Part shown: piece by piece, positions 443 to 9,411 of the stretch
Position numbering within the stretch: the stretch's first letter is position 1
How the letters are laid out: every line of letters starts with the position of its first letter
Source of the DNA: Bacillota bacterium
Lineage (GTDB): Bacteria; Bacillota; Clostridia; Christensenellales; Aristaeellaceae
Assembly: GCA_029548395.1 (NCBI GenBank)
Contig: JAKPNM010000115.1
Location: 1 to 40,612, forward strand
DNA length: 40,612 bases
Direction: 5' to 3'
Program-made: the position numbers and the translations under genes
Notes under the pieces: model-generated
What the model was told of the DNA's origin: nothing
Database searches by the model: none
What the model saw: only the letters and a program-made list of their open reading frames with translations

Positions 443-3400
443 TTAGATGGTGAAAGAGCCACGGGTCAGGCGGCTGAGCAGCTGATTGATGAGGATGACA
501 ATGAGCAGAATGCCAAAGGCCAGGGCGCTGGCCTGGGGCTGGCTGGTATAGGTCCAGTACTCATACAGCTGAAAACCGATGGTCTTGGTGGTGTTGGAAT
601 AAAGAAGAGTTGTCATGGACAGCTCATAAAAGCAGGGGATAAAAATCAAAAACCAGCCAGCTGCGATAGAGGGGAAGATCAGAGGCCCTGTGATCCGGCG
701 CATGGTGGTAAGCCAGGAAGCGCCGGATACTTGGGAGGACTCTTCCAGGGAGACGTGGATCTGGCTGATGGCGCTGGTGACCGTGCGCATGCCCATCATC
801 ATGTATTTGATAAGGTAAGCTACGATAATAATGTAGGCAGTGTTATAGATGTTGATCCCAAAGCGTCCCTGCATGGTCATGATGAGGCCCAGGGCGATGA
901 CAACCGAAGGAGAGCCTGAGCCCAGGGTAATCAAAAAATCCGGCAGTTTTCGGCCACGGATGCGGGTGCGCTGCATGAGGTAACTCATGGTAATAGCCAC
1001 CAGGATTCCCACAGTGGCGGCCACTGTGGCGAAAATTAAGCTGTTTTTGAGGGAATCAATGGTTTCTGAACGGGAAAAGATGGTGGTCCACTGGTTCAGA
1101 GTGAAGTTCCCCGCCTCCAGCACCGACTTGCCCACATCGATCTTCAGGCTGGTGGTGAGGATGGTAAAGAAGGGCAGAATCACAATAAAGAGCGCGAAGA
1201 GGATGACCAGGATGGTGAGGGGCAGACGCCAGGAGCGCAGGTCCACGATGTTGGGACGGGTGGATTTGCCGGATACGGTGATGTATTGTTTCCTGGCCAC
1301 CACAAAATCTGAGAGATAGAGAATTAAAATGGCCATGACCATCAGGAACACCGCAAGGCCTGTAGCATCGTTGAGGCCCTGGGTGCCCCGGCCATAGTAC
1401 TCAATGATGCGGGTGGTTACCGTGTGTACCCGGCCCGGCGCGCCAATGATAGAGGGAATGCCATAGCAGGAAGCCGCACTCACAAAAACAAGGAGTGCAC
1501 CGGCGATCAGGGAAGGGGTCATGATCGGCAGGGTAACCTTGATCAGGGTGATAAAGGGGGAGGCGCCGGAGACCCTGGATGCCTCTTCCAGAGAGGGGTC
1601 CATCTTCTCCATGGCACGGGAAATGGTGATGAAAGCATAGGGATAATAGAAGGTAGTCAGCACCCAGACCAGACCGCCCAGGCTGTAGATGTTGATAGGC
1701 CCCGCAGTGCTGCCCAGGCCAAAGAAGCCCCTCAGAAACTGATTGATGGTGCCCACGTTGGGGTTGAGCAGGCGCAGCCAGGCCATGGCACCCACGTAGG
1801 GAGGGACCATATAGGTAAGCACAAAGAGACTCCTGAAGAACTTTTTGCCGTACAGGTTGGTGCGCCCCACCAACCAAGCCAGCGGAAAAGCCAGCAGCGT
1901 CCCTAAAACCATGGCGGACAAGCCGCCTACAATGGTATTGTACAAAGCGCTGCGGTTCATGTTGTAGGAAAAGAGGCGGCCAAAGGTGACAAAGGACAGG
2001 CTACCGGATGGCGTAAGGGCACGGTATAGCAGGAAAAGCAGGGGCAACACCTGGACGACCAACAAGAAATCTACAATCAAAAGCACCAGCAGCCATTTAA
2101 TATCCAGACGCCACTCCCGGCTCTGGCGCATAAAGAAATACAGCAGCAGGACGTCGATCAGCAGCACAGCGCCCAGCAAGGCCAGCTGCTTGCCCTGGCT
2201 GGCGATGAGGCTCTGCAGGAAACCGCCCCCGCCCCTGGCAATGGCCAGGGATGCACTGACCCGGGGCGCGTTCTGGCGGATGGCCAGGCGAAGCCCAAGG
2301 GCCGTCTGCTCCTGCGGGGGGACGGCCAGGCCTAAGGCCTGGAGCAGCTGGGGAAGTTGATCCGCCGCTTCCGTGGCCTTATCCAAATCCAGCAGCAGAA
2401 GGGCTGCTTCCTCTCCGCTCAAAGAGGTCTCAGGCGCCGGGCGCTGGAGAAAGGCGTCCAGAGCAAAGAGCAGCCTGGCCTTGGTGACAAGGGCGTTGTC
2501 CATGGGCAAATCCGCAAGGTATTGACTGATGCGCCGGTCGGTGTCGCTGTCCCGCTGCAAAATGAGCCGCGCAGCCAGGTCATTCTCCAGCTGCGGCACG
2601 GGCTGCCCCTGAGCCAGGGCAGAGAGGACTTGGCTCAGCTCCGCGTCCCCGGTCCGGGCGCTTGTTGCCGCTTCTCCCAAAAGCGGCAGCAAGCGCTGGT
2701 TCCAGGCCCTAGCCTGGAGCAGATCAGTCTTCAGGCGCAGCTCCTGCGCGTATTCGGCCTCCATGCTGTCGGCAATCAGATTCAAAAGCTGGGCCTGGTG
2801 GTCATCCAGGGCCTGGGGCGCTGCCTCAAGCAGACGCTCATACAGGGCGCGGTTCAAGGCAATCAGCCGGGCGCCGGACATGGCGCCGGGATCAATGCCG
2901 GCAAGCACAGCGGACATGGCCTCCTCCGCGGGCAGGGCAAACAGATCCTCATAGGCTGCCGCGTCCCTTGGCACCTGGCGCAGCAGCTCCAGGAAGGGGG
3001 CCCAGTCTTCCCCCGGGCTGGCATCCATCAAAAGCTCCGCAAGCGCCCGGGTGAGGAGCAGGAGGTCCTGGCCGCCATGCAGATAGCGGGACAACCTGCG
3101 CTCTGCCACGGCTTCACCCAAAAGAGCACGTCCTTCAGCAAGAGCCATCTCTTCCACCGCCACTGATTGCTCAGTCTTTACAGCATTCAGGCTGGCGCGC
3201 AAATCCTTCCCCTGAGCCTCCGGCAGCAGGTCTGCCACCCGGAGAATCAACCGCTCCACCGCCGGAACGCCATCCTGATCCATCTGGTCGTCCATCAGCA
3301 GCAGGGCTGAGGCGGCGCCGCCGAGTTTGAGGCTGTCCTCCTCCCTGAGCAGGCTTTGAAGGGTCTGGGCCCGTAAAGCGCTGTCCGCCCGCTCAAAATC

Positions 3401-3706
3401 CCGGATGGTCTCGCCCCTGAAGCGCAATTCCCGCCAGCGCTCAGCCAACTGGCTATCCAACAGTAACGCAAGCGCCTCCTGCTGGAATGGCTGCAGCTGA
3501 ACCTTCTCCCCTGTGTCCGCAGTTTCCCTGCTGGCTTTCCGGATATAAGCAAAACCGGCCGCGTCATCATAGCCGGAAGCCTGATGCTGGCGGATACCGT
3601 GAATTCCAAGGCCCAACATAAGCAGCGCCAGGACTGTTGCCAGCGCCAGCGCCGCCCTTGCCCGCCTTTTTTCCTTTTGGTCAAAACCCGCGTGCGATGT
3701 GTTCAT
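443..3706 (-). CDS. Fused double ABC permease with a very large N-terminal extracytoplasmic domain
   Basis: This is a membrane permease with two tandem binding-protein-dependent transport (BPD) domains in one chain, as in FbpB-type importers. The track start (3718) is a TTG. I prefer the ATG at 3706, which has GAGGG six bases upstream, giving 1087 residues. A first membrane helix (about residues 15-35) is followed by roughly 460 Ala/Leu/Glu-rich, apparently all-helical residues, then further helices from about residue 505. The two permease cores each carry an EAA-like loop: SLEEASRVSGASPFITLIKV near residue 720 and SLEESSQVSGASWLTTMRRI near residue 1000. From general knowledge, FbpB-like permeases are about 500-600 residues, so the N-terminal half is extra. 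Topology suggests it lies outside the membrane, where it could contact the binding protein; that role is inference. No known domain was recognised in it. Confidence 0.9.
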   Translation of the reverse strand: MNTSHAGFDQKEKRRARAALALATVLALLMLGLGIHGIRQHQASGYDDAAGFAYIRKASRETADTGEKVQLQPFQQEALALLLDSQLAERWRELRFRGETIRDFERADSALRAQTLQSLLREEDSLKLGGAASALLLMDDQMDQDGVPAVERLILRVADLLPEAQGKDLRASLNAVKTEQSVAVEEMALAEGRALLGEAVAERRLSRYLHGGQDLLLLTRALAELLMDASPGEDWAPFLELLRQVPRDAAAYEDLFALPAEEAMSAVLAGIDPGAMSGARLIALNRALYERLLEAAPQALDDHQAQLLNLIADSMEAEYAQELRLKTDLLQARAWNQRLLPLLGEAATSARTGDAELSQVLSALAQGQPVPQLENDLAARLILQRDSDTDRRISQYLADLPMDNALVTKARLLFALDAFLQRPAPETSLSGEEAALLLLDLDKATEAADQLPQLLQALGLAVPPQEQTALGLRLAIRQNAPRVSASLAIARGGGGFLQSLIASQGKQLALLGAVLLIDVLLLYFFMRQSREWRLDIKWLLVLLIVDFLLVVQVLPLLFLLYRALTPSGSLSFVTFGRLFSYNMNRSALYNTIVGGLSAMVLGTLLAFPLAWLVGRTNLYGKKFFRSLFVLTYMVPPYVGAMAWLRLLNPNVGTINQFLRGFFGLGSTAGPINIYSLGGLVWVLTTFYYPYAFITISRAMEKMDPSLEEASRVSGASPFITLIKVTLPIMTPSLIAGALLVFVSAASCYGIPSIIGAPGRVHTVTTRIIEYYGRGTQGLNDATGLAVFLMVMAILILYLSDFVVARKQYITVSGKSTRPNIVDLRSWRLPLTILVILFALFIVILPFFTILTTSLKIDVGKSVLEAGNFTLNQWTTIFSRSETIDSLKNSLIFATVAATVGILVAITMSYLMQRTRIRGRKLPDFLITLGSGSPSVVIALGLIMTMQGRFGINIYNTAYIIIVAYLIKYMMMGMRTVTSAISQIHVSLEESSQVSGASWLTTMRRITGPLIFPSIAAGWFLIFIPCFYELSMTTLLYSNTTKTIGFQLYEYWTYTSQPQASALAFGILLIVILINQLLSRLTRGSFTI

Positions 3707-3736
3707 GTGTTCCCTCAAACCAAGCCAGGGGAGACC

Positions 3737-3792: not shown

Positions 3793-4818
3793 TTACTTGG
3801 AAATGGTGACAGCCTGCTGGAATGCCTGCTGGATTTCATTGCGTTGGGTATAGGTGCGCACCCAGTCCACACCGATGTCCTTGGCAATGAGCTCCTCGGT
3901 GTCGATGGAGTCAAAGGGAATGTCTGTTGAGCCCTTGAAGACTGAGTGCATGTAGCCCGCGATGACAAACTTTTGGCCGGCCTCGGAAAGCAGCCAGTCA
4001 GTGATGGCCTCGGCAGCCTTGACGTTCATGTTGGCGCTACGGTCCTCCGCCACAGACATGACGGTAGAAGGAATCAGGATAACGCCGTCCTCGGGGTAGA
4101 TCACAGCCAGCTTGCTGCCATCTTCCTTGCGCTTTTTAAGGACGGACTCCTCCAGGATCATGATGGCCTTGCACTCGCCGGTCTCAAGCTTGGTCAGGGC
4201 CACGGAGCCTGACTCGATCATGACATTGTTCTTGCCGAGGGCCTCAAAATACTCATAGCCATACAGGTCGCTCAGGGCGGCTACGCTGGCCATGGTGGTG
4301 CCGGAGGTCAGCGGGTTGCCCATGGAGATCAGCCCCTTGAGGCTCTCGTCAAAGGCAAACCCCTCAAAGCTCTTGGGCAGGTCCTCGGGCTGGTAAAGCT
4401 CAGGGTTATAGGCCAGAACCATGTTGCATACCCGGACCGGGTACCAGTAGCCTTCCTCATCGTAGGGGAAGCGAAGCAGGTCCTGTGCGCCCTCGATGAC
4501 GTAGGGATGCAGCCAGCCGCCCTCCTTGAGCTCCAGGGAATAGGCGGGTTCAGCCACCAGCATCATGTCGCAGCCCAGCTTGCCAGTCTCAATCTCGCCC
4601 GCCAGCTTTTGTTGCAGGGCGCCGGTGCCGCCGTAGAAGAACTCGACGTCCAGATTGGGAAACTCCTCCTCCATGGCAGCGTCCATCATGTCGATGACAA
4701 ACTGATACATAGAGGTGTAAATGACAATTTTTCCGGTCACTCCCTCATTGGCTGCCTGGGCGCTGAAAAGACCCAGGAGCATCAGCAAACACAGCAACAG
4801 GGCAATCAACTTCTTCAT
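3793..4818 (-). CDS. Extracellular solute-binding protein, family 1 (FbpA/AfuA-like)
   Basis: This is the substrate-capturing protein of the importer. The track starts at 4893, but the ATG at 4818 has GGGAGGG upstream and opens a typical signal peptide (MKKLIALLLCLLMLLGLFSA, then QAA as a likely signal peptidase I site), giving 341 residues. The mature part begins with the type 1 binding-protein pattern GKIVIYTSMYQFVIDMM. It continues with features common to Fe(III)/2-aminoethylphosphonate/polyamine-type binding proteins (GGTGALQQKL, NPLTSGTTMASV). The Cys in the signal peptide lies inside the hydrophobic core and does not form an L-x-G-C lipobox, so lipid anchoring is not evident. I do not see the paired tyrosines typical of ferric-binding FbpA, so an iron substrate is unproven. 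First gene of the transporter operon. Confidence 0.88.
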   Translation of the reverse strand: MKKLIALLLCLLMLLGLFSAQAANEGVTGKIVIYTSMYQFVIDMMDAAMEEEFPNLDVEFFYGGTGALQQKLAGEIETGKLGCDMMLVAEPAYSLELKEGGWLHPYVIEGAQDLLRFPYDEEGYWYPVRVCNMVLAYNPELYQPEDLPKSFEGFAFDESLKGLISMGNPLTSGTTMASVAALSDLYGYEYFEALGKNNVMIESGSVALTKLETGECKAIMILEESVLKKRKEDGSKLAVIYPEDGVILIPSTVMSVAEDRSANMNVKAAEAITDWLLSEAGQKFVIAGYMHSVFKGSTDIPFDSIDTEELIAKDIGVDWVRTYTQRNEIQQAFQQAVTISK

Positions 4819-5034: not shown

Positions 5035-6156
5035 TTAATGTGTTATTGCAAAGAGGGGCACCAACATCTCCCGCGCGGTCAGCCCGGCGTGCATGCCCAG
5101 CATTTTGCAGTGCTCCCTTTTCATAAACAAGGCCTTGTCCGAAATGGCCAGCGCCAGGTAATCCCCGACATAGCTTTCCAGGTCCTGCCGGCTGACTCCG
5201 GGGCCGAACAGTCCGCGTAATAAGGCTTCCCGGCTGTCAAGCAGCAGAAAATCGCCGCCAAAGGCTTGTGAAAATGCTTCAGGAAAAGCGTGATGATGCC
5301 GGGGCTTGACATAAAAGGCGCAAGCGCGCGGCTCCAGGACGCCGGGGCGCAAGAGCATCTCGCTCAAACGTGGATGCTCCTCAATCACCGCCGGCTCAGC
5401 GTCAATGAGCCCATGATCCGCCGTGGCAAGCAGCAGCACATCCCCGGGAAGCGCCATTGCAAGCGCCTGCAAGCGCCGGTCTATCTCCCGCAGGGTTCTC
5501 CTGACAGGCAGGCTGTCCACGCCGTGGGTATGCATGTCCGCGTCCGGCTGATTGGTGTAGGCATATACATATTGCCTGCCCGGGCCCTGAACAAGCGTGA
5601 GAATATGGTCGCATAGCTGTTCAAAGTCGTCCGCATGCAGCTCATCATACCTGGAAACAGCAAAGCCAGCCGCCAGACCGGCCTTGTGAAGACGTTTCTC
5701 CAGCGGAGTATACGGCAAAAAGGTATTGGCAGCGTGCGGGAAAGGAGCCGGTTGCTGTGTGAACTGAACCTGATTGCTGAACACGTCCACGCTGGTGCCG
5801 TTTTGCGGAAAAAACATCGTCCAGCCCAGCCAGCCGTGCTCATTGGGATACAGCCCGCTGCGCAGCGAAGTAGTGGCAGCCACGGTAGTGGAAGGATACA
5901 CAGCGCTCAGGTCCATCATGCGCCGACCGGGCAGAAAGGCCTCATCTGGAAACAGTTCCTCCAGGCTGACACTGCCCAGGCCATCAAGCACCAGCAGCAC
6001 AACGCTGCGCCAAGCGCCGCGGGACAACAGGTTGTCAACCTCCGGAATGCCCGGATGCATGTCCGGCATCCCCAAATATGCCGCGATGCTGCCGACCAGG
6101 TTGACACCGCAGCAGCGGTAGTCCGGCCAGTGCTGCTTATTTCCCGAAGCGATCAA
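5035..6156 (-). CDS. Alkaline phosphatase superfamily protein (type I phosphodiesterase/nucleotide pyrophosphatase-like)
   Basis: This is a probable metal-dependent phosphohydrolase; the substrate is unknown. Visible signs are the N-terminal metal site VLLVLDGLG, the nucleophile region YPSTTVAATTSLRSGLYPNE with the usual Thr/Ser, the second metal cluster QPDADMHTHG, and TADHGLID near the C-terminus. The track start at 6270 reads through the upstream gene in another frame. A TTG at 6156 preceded by GGGGAA gives 373 residues and places the characteristic N-terminus (PDY..C.VNL..SIA.YLG) a few residues in, so I chose it. No signal peptide is seen, which suggests a cytoplasmic enzyme. It overlaps the upstream dehydrogenase-like gene by 20 bp and is probably translationally coupled to it. 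The fold call is confident; the start is less so. Confidence 0.82.
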   Translation of the reverse strand: MIASGNKQHWPDYRCCGVNLVGSIAAYLGMPDMHPGIPEVDNLLSRGAWRSVVLLVLDGLGSVSLEELFPDEAFLPGRRMMDLSAVYPSTTVAATTSLRSGLYPNEHGWLGWTMFFPQNGTSVDVFSNQVQFTQQPAPFPHAANTFLPYTPLEKRLHKAGLAAGFAVSRYDELHADDFEQLCDHILTLVQGPGRQYVYAYTNQPDADMHTHGVDSLPVRRTLREIDRRLQALAMALPGDVLLLATADHGLIDAEPAVIEEHPRLSEMLLRPGVLEPRACAFYVKPRHHHAFPEAFSQAFGGDFLLLDSREALLRGLFGPGVSRQDLESYVGDYLALAISDKALFMKREHCKMLGMHAGLTAREMLVPLFAITH

Positions 6157-7063
6157 GCAATTCCCCGGCCAGCCTGATTTGCTGGTTGATCCTCTCCATG
6201 ATCTCTTCCGTGGAAATATCCTGTTCCTCCTCTTCGGATGCGCTCGTACACCAGCAGGAAGCGAACACATTATCCACTGCGCTCCGCAGGCAATCGCCCT
6301 CAGGATCCATATTCAGGGCAGACTTGAGCATGGCCTGCGTTGCGTACAGCACTGAAAACAAAGGCGCTTCTTCCTGTTTTGCCCTTGTAACACCATAAAA
6401 CTGCCCGTTGTCAGACAGCAGCATGGTATAGGCCAGCAGCTCAGTGCCATTCAGGTAGTGCAGCAGCCCGGCTGCCAGCGCGGCATCCTTTGGGGCAGCC
6501 ATCACCAGCTGCGCCGGCATGATATGCCTGAGCGCTGATATCAAGAAACTATCCAGGGACATTGACCGTGGCGCGGGCAGGGCGGCATACATGGCAGCCT
6601 TGTTGAGCGCACCGGAATAATCCGCCCCATCCTCGGGCGCGACATACAGCACATCCGCTGCATTCCTGTACGCCAGCGAACAGGCGCTTACCGCGGTTTT
6701 GCCAATGGCGGACGCGCTGTCCGCAAGCGGCCATATCAGATCCAGATCTGCCAGCGGCCCGGCTTTGAGACGGGTTAGGTGCTGAATGTCCGCGTGCTTC
6801 TGATATGTCAGGCAGCCGGCGTGGCAGCCTAACATCAGCCCGATCTCCTGCAGAAAACTCGCACTGCCCGCCAGCATCGCCGCATCGTGCTGCTGCGCGA
6901 TCTCCGCCACATCCCTTGCGTCGCCGTGCTCGCCAGTCACAAACTCACGCATCGCAAAGCTGTGCGAAAACGCCAGCGCCACCTCGCTGAGCACGTTTTG
7001 CGCCAGGCGCAAGGCATCCCGATGGGGTTCATCCTGGGCAACAAGCAATATTTTTGCGCGCAT
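6137..7063 (-). CDS. Degenerate isopropylmalate/isocitrate dehydrogenase-like protein (probably non-catalytic)
   Basis: A 308-residue protein with no clear catalytic motif. By eye it follows the outline of the LeuB/Icd family. The N-terminus resembles the first Rossmann-like strand. An LKAGPLADLDLIWPLAD stretch sits where the family has its SPLK..VDLVIVRE segment. The C-terminal helix FSVLYATQAMLKSALNMDPE matches the ILSAAMMLRYSLGLEEEA pattern, and it ends with a family-like ISTEEIMERI. The hallmark residues are missing: no GDGIGPE, no R..LGLYANxRP arginines, no GDILSD aspartates, no HGSAPDIAG. If the family call is right it has lost catalysis and may be regulatory or structural. It starts 1 bp after the CapA stop and overlaps the phosphatase start, so it is tightly coupled to both. 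The alternative is an unrelated alpha/beta protein. Confidence 0.5.
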   Translation of the reverse strand: MRAKILLVAQDEPHRDALRLAQNVLSEVALAFSHSFAMREFVTGEHGDARDVAEIAQQHDAAMLAGSASFLQEIGLMLGCHAGCLTYQKHADIQHLTRLKAGPLADLDLIWPLADSASAIGKTAVSACSLAYRNAADVLYVAPEDGADYSGALNKAAMYAALPAPRSMSLDSFLISALRHIMPAQLVMAAPKDAALAAGLLHYLNGTELLAYTMLLSDNGQFYGVTRAKQEEAPLFSVLYATQAMLKSALNMDPEGDCLRSAVDNVFASCWCTSASEEEEQDISTEEIMERINQQIRLAGELLDRFGK

Positions 7064-7064
7064 C

Positions 7065-8225
7065 TTACTCCCAGTCTACCGGATAACGATCCACGGCATA
7101 TTCCAAACCCTTGCTGTTCTTCAATAGCATATCAACAACATTGTTAATCAGGTACTGGTCTGTAAACGGCGTAGGAGCAAAGTCGTTGTAATCCTTCCGT
7201 GAGGAAATCCGGCAGGGTATGATGCGAAATGAGTCCGGTTCGATTGAGTTTTGCTTCACATTAAACCTGATTTGAAACAGAAAGGTGCTCATATCGCTTG
7301 GCTTGTTATTGCCGGCAAAGCTGAAGTTCCCCAGAGAATAGACAATATAGCGTCCCTTGTAAAACTCAATCGGATTGATGCGGTGGCTGTGGTGCCCCAG
7401 CACCAGGTCGGCTCCGGCGTCAATGGTGGCGCGCCCCAGCTCGATCTGGTTGCTGTTGGGCTTATAATCCAGTTCGGCACCCCAGTGAAAGCTGACGATC
7501 ACGATGTCATGCAGCGCCTTGGCATTTTGTACATCCTGCGGCACTTTGATAAGCAGCTCCGCAACCTGCTCGCGGTACTGCTGGTAAGTCAGCATCGCGA
7601 TGGACACGCCATTGATCTCGTACACGCCTTTGTTCTGCGCGTCGCTCCATACGATGCCAGCGCTTTCCAGCGCGGCCTTGGTATCCTTCAGCCCTGTCTC
7701 GCCGTGATCCATGACATGGTTGTTCTGCAGCGCCACCGCCTCAATACCGCCATCCCTGAGGATGCTCACATACTCCGGCGGTGCAGAAAATACAAACTGA
7801 TTGTTGGTTTTGTACACCGGGGCGGTGGTCAGCGTCCCTTCAAAATTGACGATGGTCAGGTCATCCGCGAGCAGGATGTCGCGCACGTTGCGGGTGAGAA
7901 AATTCAAATCCCCGCCCTGCTTTTTAAGCTCCCGCTCAAAAAGGGAATCGCCGCGCTTGCGCACATCGCCGCCAATGGTCATGTCGCCACCTGCGGTAAT
8001 CACCAGCTGAAAGCTTCCATCCTTGAACTGCCGCTCAGGCTGCACGGTGGCAGGCGGCTGCAGGGTGGGTTCCGCAGAATAAGTATTCGCCGGGGGCGGC
8101 TCAGGCGTAGCCAGCAGGGAGGGGTCCAGATCATAGATGGAAATCTCCTCGTCTGCCAACGCCATGCCTGTGGACAAGGCGCACAGCAGGGTAACTGCCA
8201 AGAGCAATAAACTGGTCCGTTTCAC
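7065..8225 (-). CDS. CapA-family protein (poly-gamma-glutamate/capsule-type metallophosphatase fold)
   Basis: An exported protein of the CapA/PgsA family, whose fold is calcineurin-like. Members take part in poly-gamma-glutamate or cell-surface polymer production, although many have no defined role. The track start at 8366 lies inside the upstream aminotransferase. A GTG at 8225 with AGGAGAG upstream begins a proper signal peptide (KRTSLLLLAVTLLCALSTGM, then ALAD), giving 386 residues. Family motifs are AGGDMTIGGD, NFEGTLTT, LQNNHVMDHGETGL, SFHWGAELD, LGHHSHRINPIEFYKGR and YSLGNF. No PgsB/PgsC partners are visible nearby, so polyglutamate synthesis is not supported. It starts 10 bp after the aminotransferase stop and is followed 1 bp later by the dehydrogenase-like gene. 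Confidence 0.88.
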   Translation of the reverse strand: MKRTSLLLLAVTLLCALSTGMALADEEISIYDLDPSLLATPEPPPANTYSAEPTLQPPATVQPERQFKDGSFQLVITAGGDMTIGGDVRKRGDSLFERELKKQGGDLNFLTRNVRDILLADDLTIVNFEGTLTTAPVYKTNNQFVFSAPPEYVSILRDGGIEAVALQNNHVMDHGETGLKDTKAALESAGIVWSDAQNKGVYEINGVSIAMLTYQQYREQVAELLIKVPQDVQNAKALHDIVIVSFHWGAELDYKPNSNQIELGRATIDAGADLVLGHHSHRINPIEFYKGRYIVYSLGNFSFAGNNKPSDMSTFLFQIRFNVKQNSIEPDSFRIIPCRISSRKDYNDFAPTPFTDQYLINNVVDMLLKNSKGLEYAVDRYPVDWE

Positions 8226-8235
8226 AAAATCTCTC

Positions 8236-9411
8236 CTATAAGCCGGCCAGGAAGGCCTTGATCCGTTCAAAGGCCACCAGCAAGCTGTCCGTCGCCGTCG
8301 CATAGCAGCAGCGAATGTGCCCTTCCCCACTGGGACCAAAGGCGCTGCCGGGTACACACACCACATGCTGCTCCTTGAGAAGACGCTCGCAAAACTGCTC
8401 GCTGTTCAGTCCGGTATGGCGGATGTCGGGGAAGGCATAAAACGCGCCTTTGGGCTCAAAGCATGGAAGCCCCATCTCATTGAAGGCTTTGACCATCAGC
8501 CGCCTGCGGCGGTCATAGCTCTCACGCATCCTGCTCACTTCGGCATAATCGGTCTCACGCCCCTGGCGCAGCGCATTCCAGGCAGCCACCTGGCTTTGCC
8601 GGCTGGCACACATGATGGTGTATTGATGAATGCGCGCACAGGCCCTGACAATTTCAGCCGGCGCACACAGGTAGCCCAGACGAAAGCCGGTCATCGCAAA
8701 GGCCTTGGAAAAGCCGCTGACGACCATGCTGCGCTCACGCATGCCCGGCAGCGAGGCAATGGAAGGCTGCCGGAATCCATCATAGCATAATTCCGCATAG
8801 ATTTCGTCACATACCACGAACAGGTCATGGCGTATAGCAAGTTCTGCAATACGCTCCAGACGCTCCCTGGGCATGACCGCACCGGTTGGATTGCTGGGAT
8901 AACTCAAAACCAGCACACGGCTTTGGGGCGTGATCCGGGCTTCCAGATCCTCAGGAAGCAGCTCAAAGTTGTTCTGCGCATGCGTGGGCACATTGACCGG
9001 CACGCCAAGGGCGAACCGGGTGCAGGCCTGGTAACTGATATAACAGGGTTCCGGGATGAGCACCTCATCCCCCGGGCGTACCAGGACCCGCAAAGCGATG
9101 TCAATCGCCTCGCTGGCACCGACCGTCACCAGCACTTCACTGTCAGGCGCGTAGCTCACTTCAAAGCGTGTTTGCAAATAATGGACGATCTCTTCTCTCA
9201 GGGGAAGAATGCCCGCATTGGTGGTGTACTGGGTTTCTCCGTCCAGCAGGCTGTCAATCGCGGTATTGCGCACAGCAAAAGGCGTAACAAAGTCCGGCTC
9301 CCCTACGCCAAGGGAAATGACATCCTTCATGGTGCCGGCAATGTCAAAAAAGCGTCGGATTGCGCTGGGCGGCACGGCCGCAATGGCCGGGTTGACAAAA
9401 CGACTGCTCAT
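8236..9411 (-). CDS. Class I/II PLP-dependent aminotransferase (aspartate aminotransferase-like)
   Basis: Transfers amino groups between an amino acid and a 2-oxo acid using pyridoxal phosphate in the cytoplasm. The 391 residues fit fold-type I aminotransferases. Visible markers are the early GVGEPDF, TVGASEAID at the cofactor phosphate site, SYPSNPTGAV, VCDEIYAEL with the PLP-ring Asp, the Schiff-base lysine in SGFSKAFAMTGFRLGY, and the C-terminal carboxylate-binding HIRCCYA arginine region. The ATG overlaps the stop of the Lrp/AsnC gene by 4 bp, so the regulator and enzyme are translationally coupled. This pairing is common in Clostridia and suggests the regulator senses the enzyme's amino acid. 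Substrate specificity (Asp, aromatic or Ala) cannot be assigned from sequence alone. Confidence 0.93.
   Translation of the reverse strand: MSSRFVNPAIAAVPPSAIRRFFDIAGTMKDVISLGVGEPDFVTPFAVRNTAIDSLLDGETQYTTNAGILPLREEIVHYLQTRFEVSYAPDSEVLVTVGASEAIDIALRVLVRPGDEVLIPEPCYISYQACTRFALGVPVNVPTHAQNNFELLPEDLEARITPQSRVLVLSYPSNPTGAVMPRERLERIAELAIRHDLFVVCDEIYAELCYDGFRQPSIASLPGMRERSMVVSGFSKAFAMTGFRLGYLCAPAEIVRACARIHQYTIMCASRQSQVAAWNALRQGRETDYAEVSRMRESYDRRRRLMVKAFNEMGLPCFEPKGAFYAFPDIRHTGLNSEQFCERLLKEQHVVCVPGSAFGPSGEGHIRCCYATATDSLLVAFERIKAFLAGL

Follow-up and report, generated by a model that had tools for sequence, protein, structure and literature searches.

A fused type I ABC importer permease with an unclassified, predicted all-helical outer domain, possibly a guide for its binding protein

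The DNA analyzed here (hereafter, the window; the whole 40,612 bp of contig JAKPNM010000115.1 in assembly GCA_029548395.1, from a Bacillota bacterium of the Aristaeellaceae) carries a three-gene type I ABC importer operon that encodes a binding protein (SBP), a fused double permease, and an ATPase (Table 1). In this class of importers, the SBP hands the substrate to the permease at its outer face, and uptake is powered by the ATPase. The partial ATPase gene of the window corresponds to a complete ~357-aa ATPase that follows the permease in relatives. The SBP, permease, and ATPase genes are the only neighbors conserved across relatives, and nothing else recurs in the gene context as a clue to the substrate. 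Elsewhere in the window, a 308-aa ORF with no Pfam match (6137–7063, minus strand) overlaps a PF01663 phosphodiesterase-like gene (5035–6270) and has a PGA_cap gene (7065–8366) as its other neighbor; the phosphodiesterase-like and PGA_cap genes are not conserved beside the importer in relatives.

Table 1 Features of the importer operon, with positions in the window and the basis of each assignment.
Feature	Position	Strand	Basis
Fused ABC importer permease, 1087 aa	443..3706	-	ATG at 3706; stop ends at 443
TM1, residues 16-38	3593..3661	-	Hydropathy; helix 9-44 in AlphaFold2 model; K/R-rich cytoplasmic segment ahead
Predicted extracytoplasmic helical domain (long form), residues 39-505, ~467 residues	2192..3592	-	AlphaFold2 of insert alone
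Approximate expansion, residues ~93-331, missing from short-form orthologs	2714..3430	-	hhalign of short vs long domain; limits uncertain
TM2, residues 506-529	2120..2191	-	Hydropathy; helix 505-529 in AlphaFold2 model
Permease core 1, residues 532-806	1289..2113	-	PF00528 at 607-803
EAA loop 1, E707-P727	1526..1588	-	Translation; invariant alignment columns
Permease core 2, residues 823-1087	446..1240	-	Second stretch of PF00528 and NCBIfam permease models
EAA loop 2, E988-P1008	683..745	-	Translation; invariant alignment columns
Partner SBP, 341 aa, SBP_bac_6/1/8, Sec signal peptide without lipobox	3793..4818	-	Domain matches; directly upstream of permease, conserved in orthologs
SBP E223-E224-S225, aligned to Tyr pair of ferric-binding protein	4144..4152	-	Alignment; invariant in 74 ortholog SBPs
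ABC ATPase of same operon, cut by contig end	3..431	-	Pfam/NCBIfam match

Based on hydropathy, PF00528 matches, and the translation, the single permease frame (1091 aa if an alternative TTG start at 3718 is used) encodes a TM helix, a long soluble stretch, and a complete two-core permease with both EAA loops, as a preliminary description made from the DNA letters had proposed. The hydropathy profile places TM1 at residues ~15–39, followed by an insert without a membrane segment, TM2 at residues ~504–529, and then the core. PF00528 covers both cores in two stretches (70.6 bits vs. a cut-off of 26.4), and residues 1–534 match no Pfam or NCBIfam family. Two PF00528 cores, two EAA loops, and SBP and ATPase genes alongside characterize a fused double BPD_transp_1 permease, and all of these were found; the protein is the fused double form of a type I ABC importer permease of the Fbp/Pot/Phn type. 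The earlier remark that fused permeases of this kind are about half this size was fair, given that paralogous fused permeases of the relatives have ~550–660 residues, the FbpBC chain has 493, and the TIGR03262 model has 546 positions.

The partner SBP is related to ferric-binding proteins (E-value 1e-8). Neither of two candidate substrate classes is supported. A ferric iron (Fbp) importer would carry the Tyr pair of the iron-binding site, and the residues that align with this pair in the ferric-binding protein 2o69 are E-E-S, invariant in 74 orthologs. With respect to the 2-aminoethylphosphonate importer PhnS2/T2/U2, scores fell below the NCBIfam cut-offs for both the permease (143.7 vs. 593.25) and the SBP (69.7 vs. 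392.75).

The insert between TM1 and TM2 was present in all 83 distinct full-length orthologs from the genome collections (≥50% identity in the best segment). Counted between the end of TM1 and the beginning of TM2, its length has a bimodal distribution among these, with 196–221 residues in 75 orthologs, 263 in one, and 473–515 in seven; two further long forms bring their number to nine. In a profile alignment (hhalign), the short domain aligned with the two ends of the long one, and ~240–300 additional residues of the long domain lay between them. Because hhalign returned no self-match, an origin of the long form by internal duplication was rejected. The domain of the window is ~40 residues shorter than the other long forms, with gaps located mostly near its C-terminal part (residues ~420–465). 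In a tree of the permease core, a branch with SH-aLRT 98 separates the nine long forms from all others; they are nested among short forms and constitute one clade. One lineage, including the window, may thus have expanded the domain by ~240–300 residues, with the direction (expansion vs. contraction) uncertain because the outgroup branches are very long and the root is uncertain.

In 396 genomes sampled across the order, all orthologs with >70% core identity have frames of domain-bearing length, apart from one cut by a contig end, and the fused permeases examined at ~36% identity and below have no insert. A profile of the domain matched only the window's own genome among 399 genomes sampled across the phylum, and within the window's family its low E-value matches were permease orthologs or pieces of them. 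The domain is a feature of the whole permease subfamily, of which the window carries the rarer, expanded form.

Ahead of TM1, the permeases of the window and of nearly all relatives have a net basic segment, and in nearly all of them K/R residues also occur in the short stretch that links TM2 to the first core helix. Because both flanks are K/R-rich and nothing hydrophobic lies between TM1 and TM2, the positive-inside rule places the insert outside the membrane, as originally supposed. AlphaFold2 modeling of the insert alone gave a confident all-helical fold of about 24 helices (mean pLDDT 93.7, pTM 0.86), and in the model of the full-length permease (pLDDT 80.9) the insert mostly exceeded 90; it is strongly predicted to be a folded all-helical domain. 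Searches with the domain, alone or as alignments, against Pfam, NCBIfam, and PDB sequences returned sub-threshold noise only, the best being TPR_21 at 0.0015 in two of 46 domain members and under its curated cut-off. A PDB fold search with the domain alone found nothing at E ≤ 0.001 (best 0.054, TM about 0.1), and a literature search for such a domain returned nothing direct. Conserved motifs in the domain include SGF, GPK, and LKK..R, and conserved residues are concentrated in and near the TM helices of the hairpin.

Taken together, these features point to an extra TM hairpin ahead of the first core helix, whose outside loop has become the folded all-helical domain, an anatomy that we consider highly probable. 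We infer that the domain most likely stands by the outer mouth of the permease, where it would form an accessory platform for loosely guiding or confining the SBP. It is best read as a clade-specific outer accessory domain, possibly one that acts as an SBP guide in the manner of MalF P2, whose contact with MalE is known from the maltose importer (PMC3150292). It would not substitute for a lipid anchor of the SBP. The probability that this anatomy and the guide function hold jointly is, in our estimate, roughly 40%.

Averaged over pairs, sequence identity is 0.32 in the domain, compared with 0.69 in the SBP and 0.79 in the core. The dN/dS of the domain is 0.14–0.31 vs. 0.035–0.065 for the core (three pairs, with synonymous sites near saturation in two of them), and therefore the domain is under selection, but loosely. 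No co-variation between domain and SBP identity was found beyond that of the core (partial rank r = -0.09). Given that the domain evolves fast and tolerated an insertion of ~300 residues, a spacer or a domain for another partner fits at least as well as a guide. The domain could then be a helical stalk or scaffold that stabilizes the permease, keeps it at a distance from the wall, or contacts another surface partner, with its length free to grow; a retained fold under purifying selection despite fast evolution, tolerance of a single large expansion, and the lack of co-variation with the SBP are all consistent with this explanation. However, no partner or wall-binding motif was identified, and the conserved SGF, GPK, and LKK..R motifs suggest more than a passive spacer; we consider a spacer or envelope-contact role somewhat less probable than a guide.

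The preliminary description also held that the partner SBP has no visible lipid anchor, and the window SBP indeed carries a signal peptide of the AxA type, with no lipobox. Lipoboxes were called by pattern and by eye, with small samples outside the window's own genome. The N-terminus could be read in 68 partner SBPs, of which 67 have no strict lipobox; the exception is L065 ('LAGC'), and the SBP of L099 (ASSC; 'SSCG'), one of the 67, falls outside the strict pattern, looks lipoprotein-like by eye, and is probably lipidated. This pattern would agree with the further proposal that the permease, through its domain, holds an otherwise unanchored SBP in place of a lipid anchor. However, the absence of a lipobox is not tied to the domain. 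Within the window's bacterial family, nearly all sampled SBPs have no lipobox, including the other SBPs of its own genome and nearly all of those beside domain-less fused permeases (L134 and L138 are ambiguous), whereas sister families of the order mostly show clear lipoboxes. Moreover, the domain is kept alongside a lipobox SBP in three genomes (L065, L099, and, from a sister family, G424 with 'LTGC'). Because SBPs that partner domain-less permeases are also lipobox-free and those that partner domain-bearing ones are lipidated in lipobox-using genomes, SBP lipidation follows lineage independently of the domain. The proposed tether is thus unsupported and improbable, and it is possible that the domain docks the SBP. 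We also doubt strongly a wider version, in which the domain, with a new helical fold outside the membrane, retains or guides SBPs that are not lipidated, as one of several non-lipid retention devices in a family largely devoid of lipid-anchored SBPs.

Of 60 relatives, Lgt was found in 59 and LspA in 51, and the window's genome has both; Omp85 was found in none of 40. It is a wider puzzle that, with Lgt and LspA present and Omp85 not found, the sampled importer SBPs of this family nearly all lack a lipid anchor, yet sister families keep theirs; a literature search on lipobox-free SBPs in this bacterial group returned nothing direct. The SBPs in G000 (loci L152–L172), G012, G018, G034, G062, and G023 nearly all have AxA-type signal peptides without a lipobox, and L220 in G012 is the one sampled family frame that looks lipidated. 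There are also very large SBPs of ~940–1000 aa (L190, 3526–6468, minus strand; L191, 3283–6096, plus strand; and an SBP frame in L165/L192), in which a long extra region precedes the SBP_bac_1 part; the two that were read have a non-lipid signal peptide.

A sensory or regulatory role, in which a ligand or another protein bound by the outer domain would modulate transport by way of the TM hairpin, would agree with a hairpin that runs straight into the first core helix and with the clustering of conserved residues in and near the TM helices, but sequence and fold searches recognized no ligand-binding fold and no regulator gene is conserved beside the importer in relatives, and we consider such a role unlikely. 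A chance ORF or misassembly is ruled out because 83 distinct full-length orthologs, which come from independent genomes, share the architecture and purifying selection acts on the insert, and the charge pattern puts the loop outside, so that an artefactual fusion or an inner-side domain is very improbable.

The importer is of a known kind with an ordinary core, and what is new is its unclassified helical outer domain. A well-studied importer class gains a confidently predicted outer domain outside current classification, and the long forms suggest that a single lineage can add hundreds of residues to such a domain. The best match of the full-length permease is Thermus thermophilus FbpBC (PDB 9j4r; fold E-value 2.4e-10, TM of target 0.74; sequence E-value 2.1e-22), which also has two permease cores in one chain; however, its 493 residues are too short for a second outer domain, and the match spans the core only (582–1069). 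The partner SBP is related to those of Fbp systems but, unlike ferric-binding proteins, has no Tyr pair at the aligned iron-ligand site. The best NCBIfam match is PhnU2, a putative 2-aminoethylphosphonate permease (TIGR03262; residues 537–1081, E-value 7e-42), and the SBP and ATPase weakly match PhnS2 and PhnT2, but at 143.7 bits vs. a cut-off of 593 the permease is not a member by the curated test. In SBP-fused importers (OpuA, GlnPQ, and the Mycoplasma permease/SBP fusions NF043073), the permease chain also carries additional soluble parts on its outer side. In those systems the outer part is the SBP itself, whereas here the SBP has its own gene and the domain does not resemble an SBP. For the reading of the domain as an SBP guide, a parallel is E. 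coli MalF P2, likewise a large soluble domain that an importer permease exposes on its outer side. MalF P2 spans residues 91–271, follows the first core helix, and has a largely beta fold; the domain described here, which had no P2 match in its fold search, is predicted to be all-helical and precedes the first core helix.
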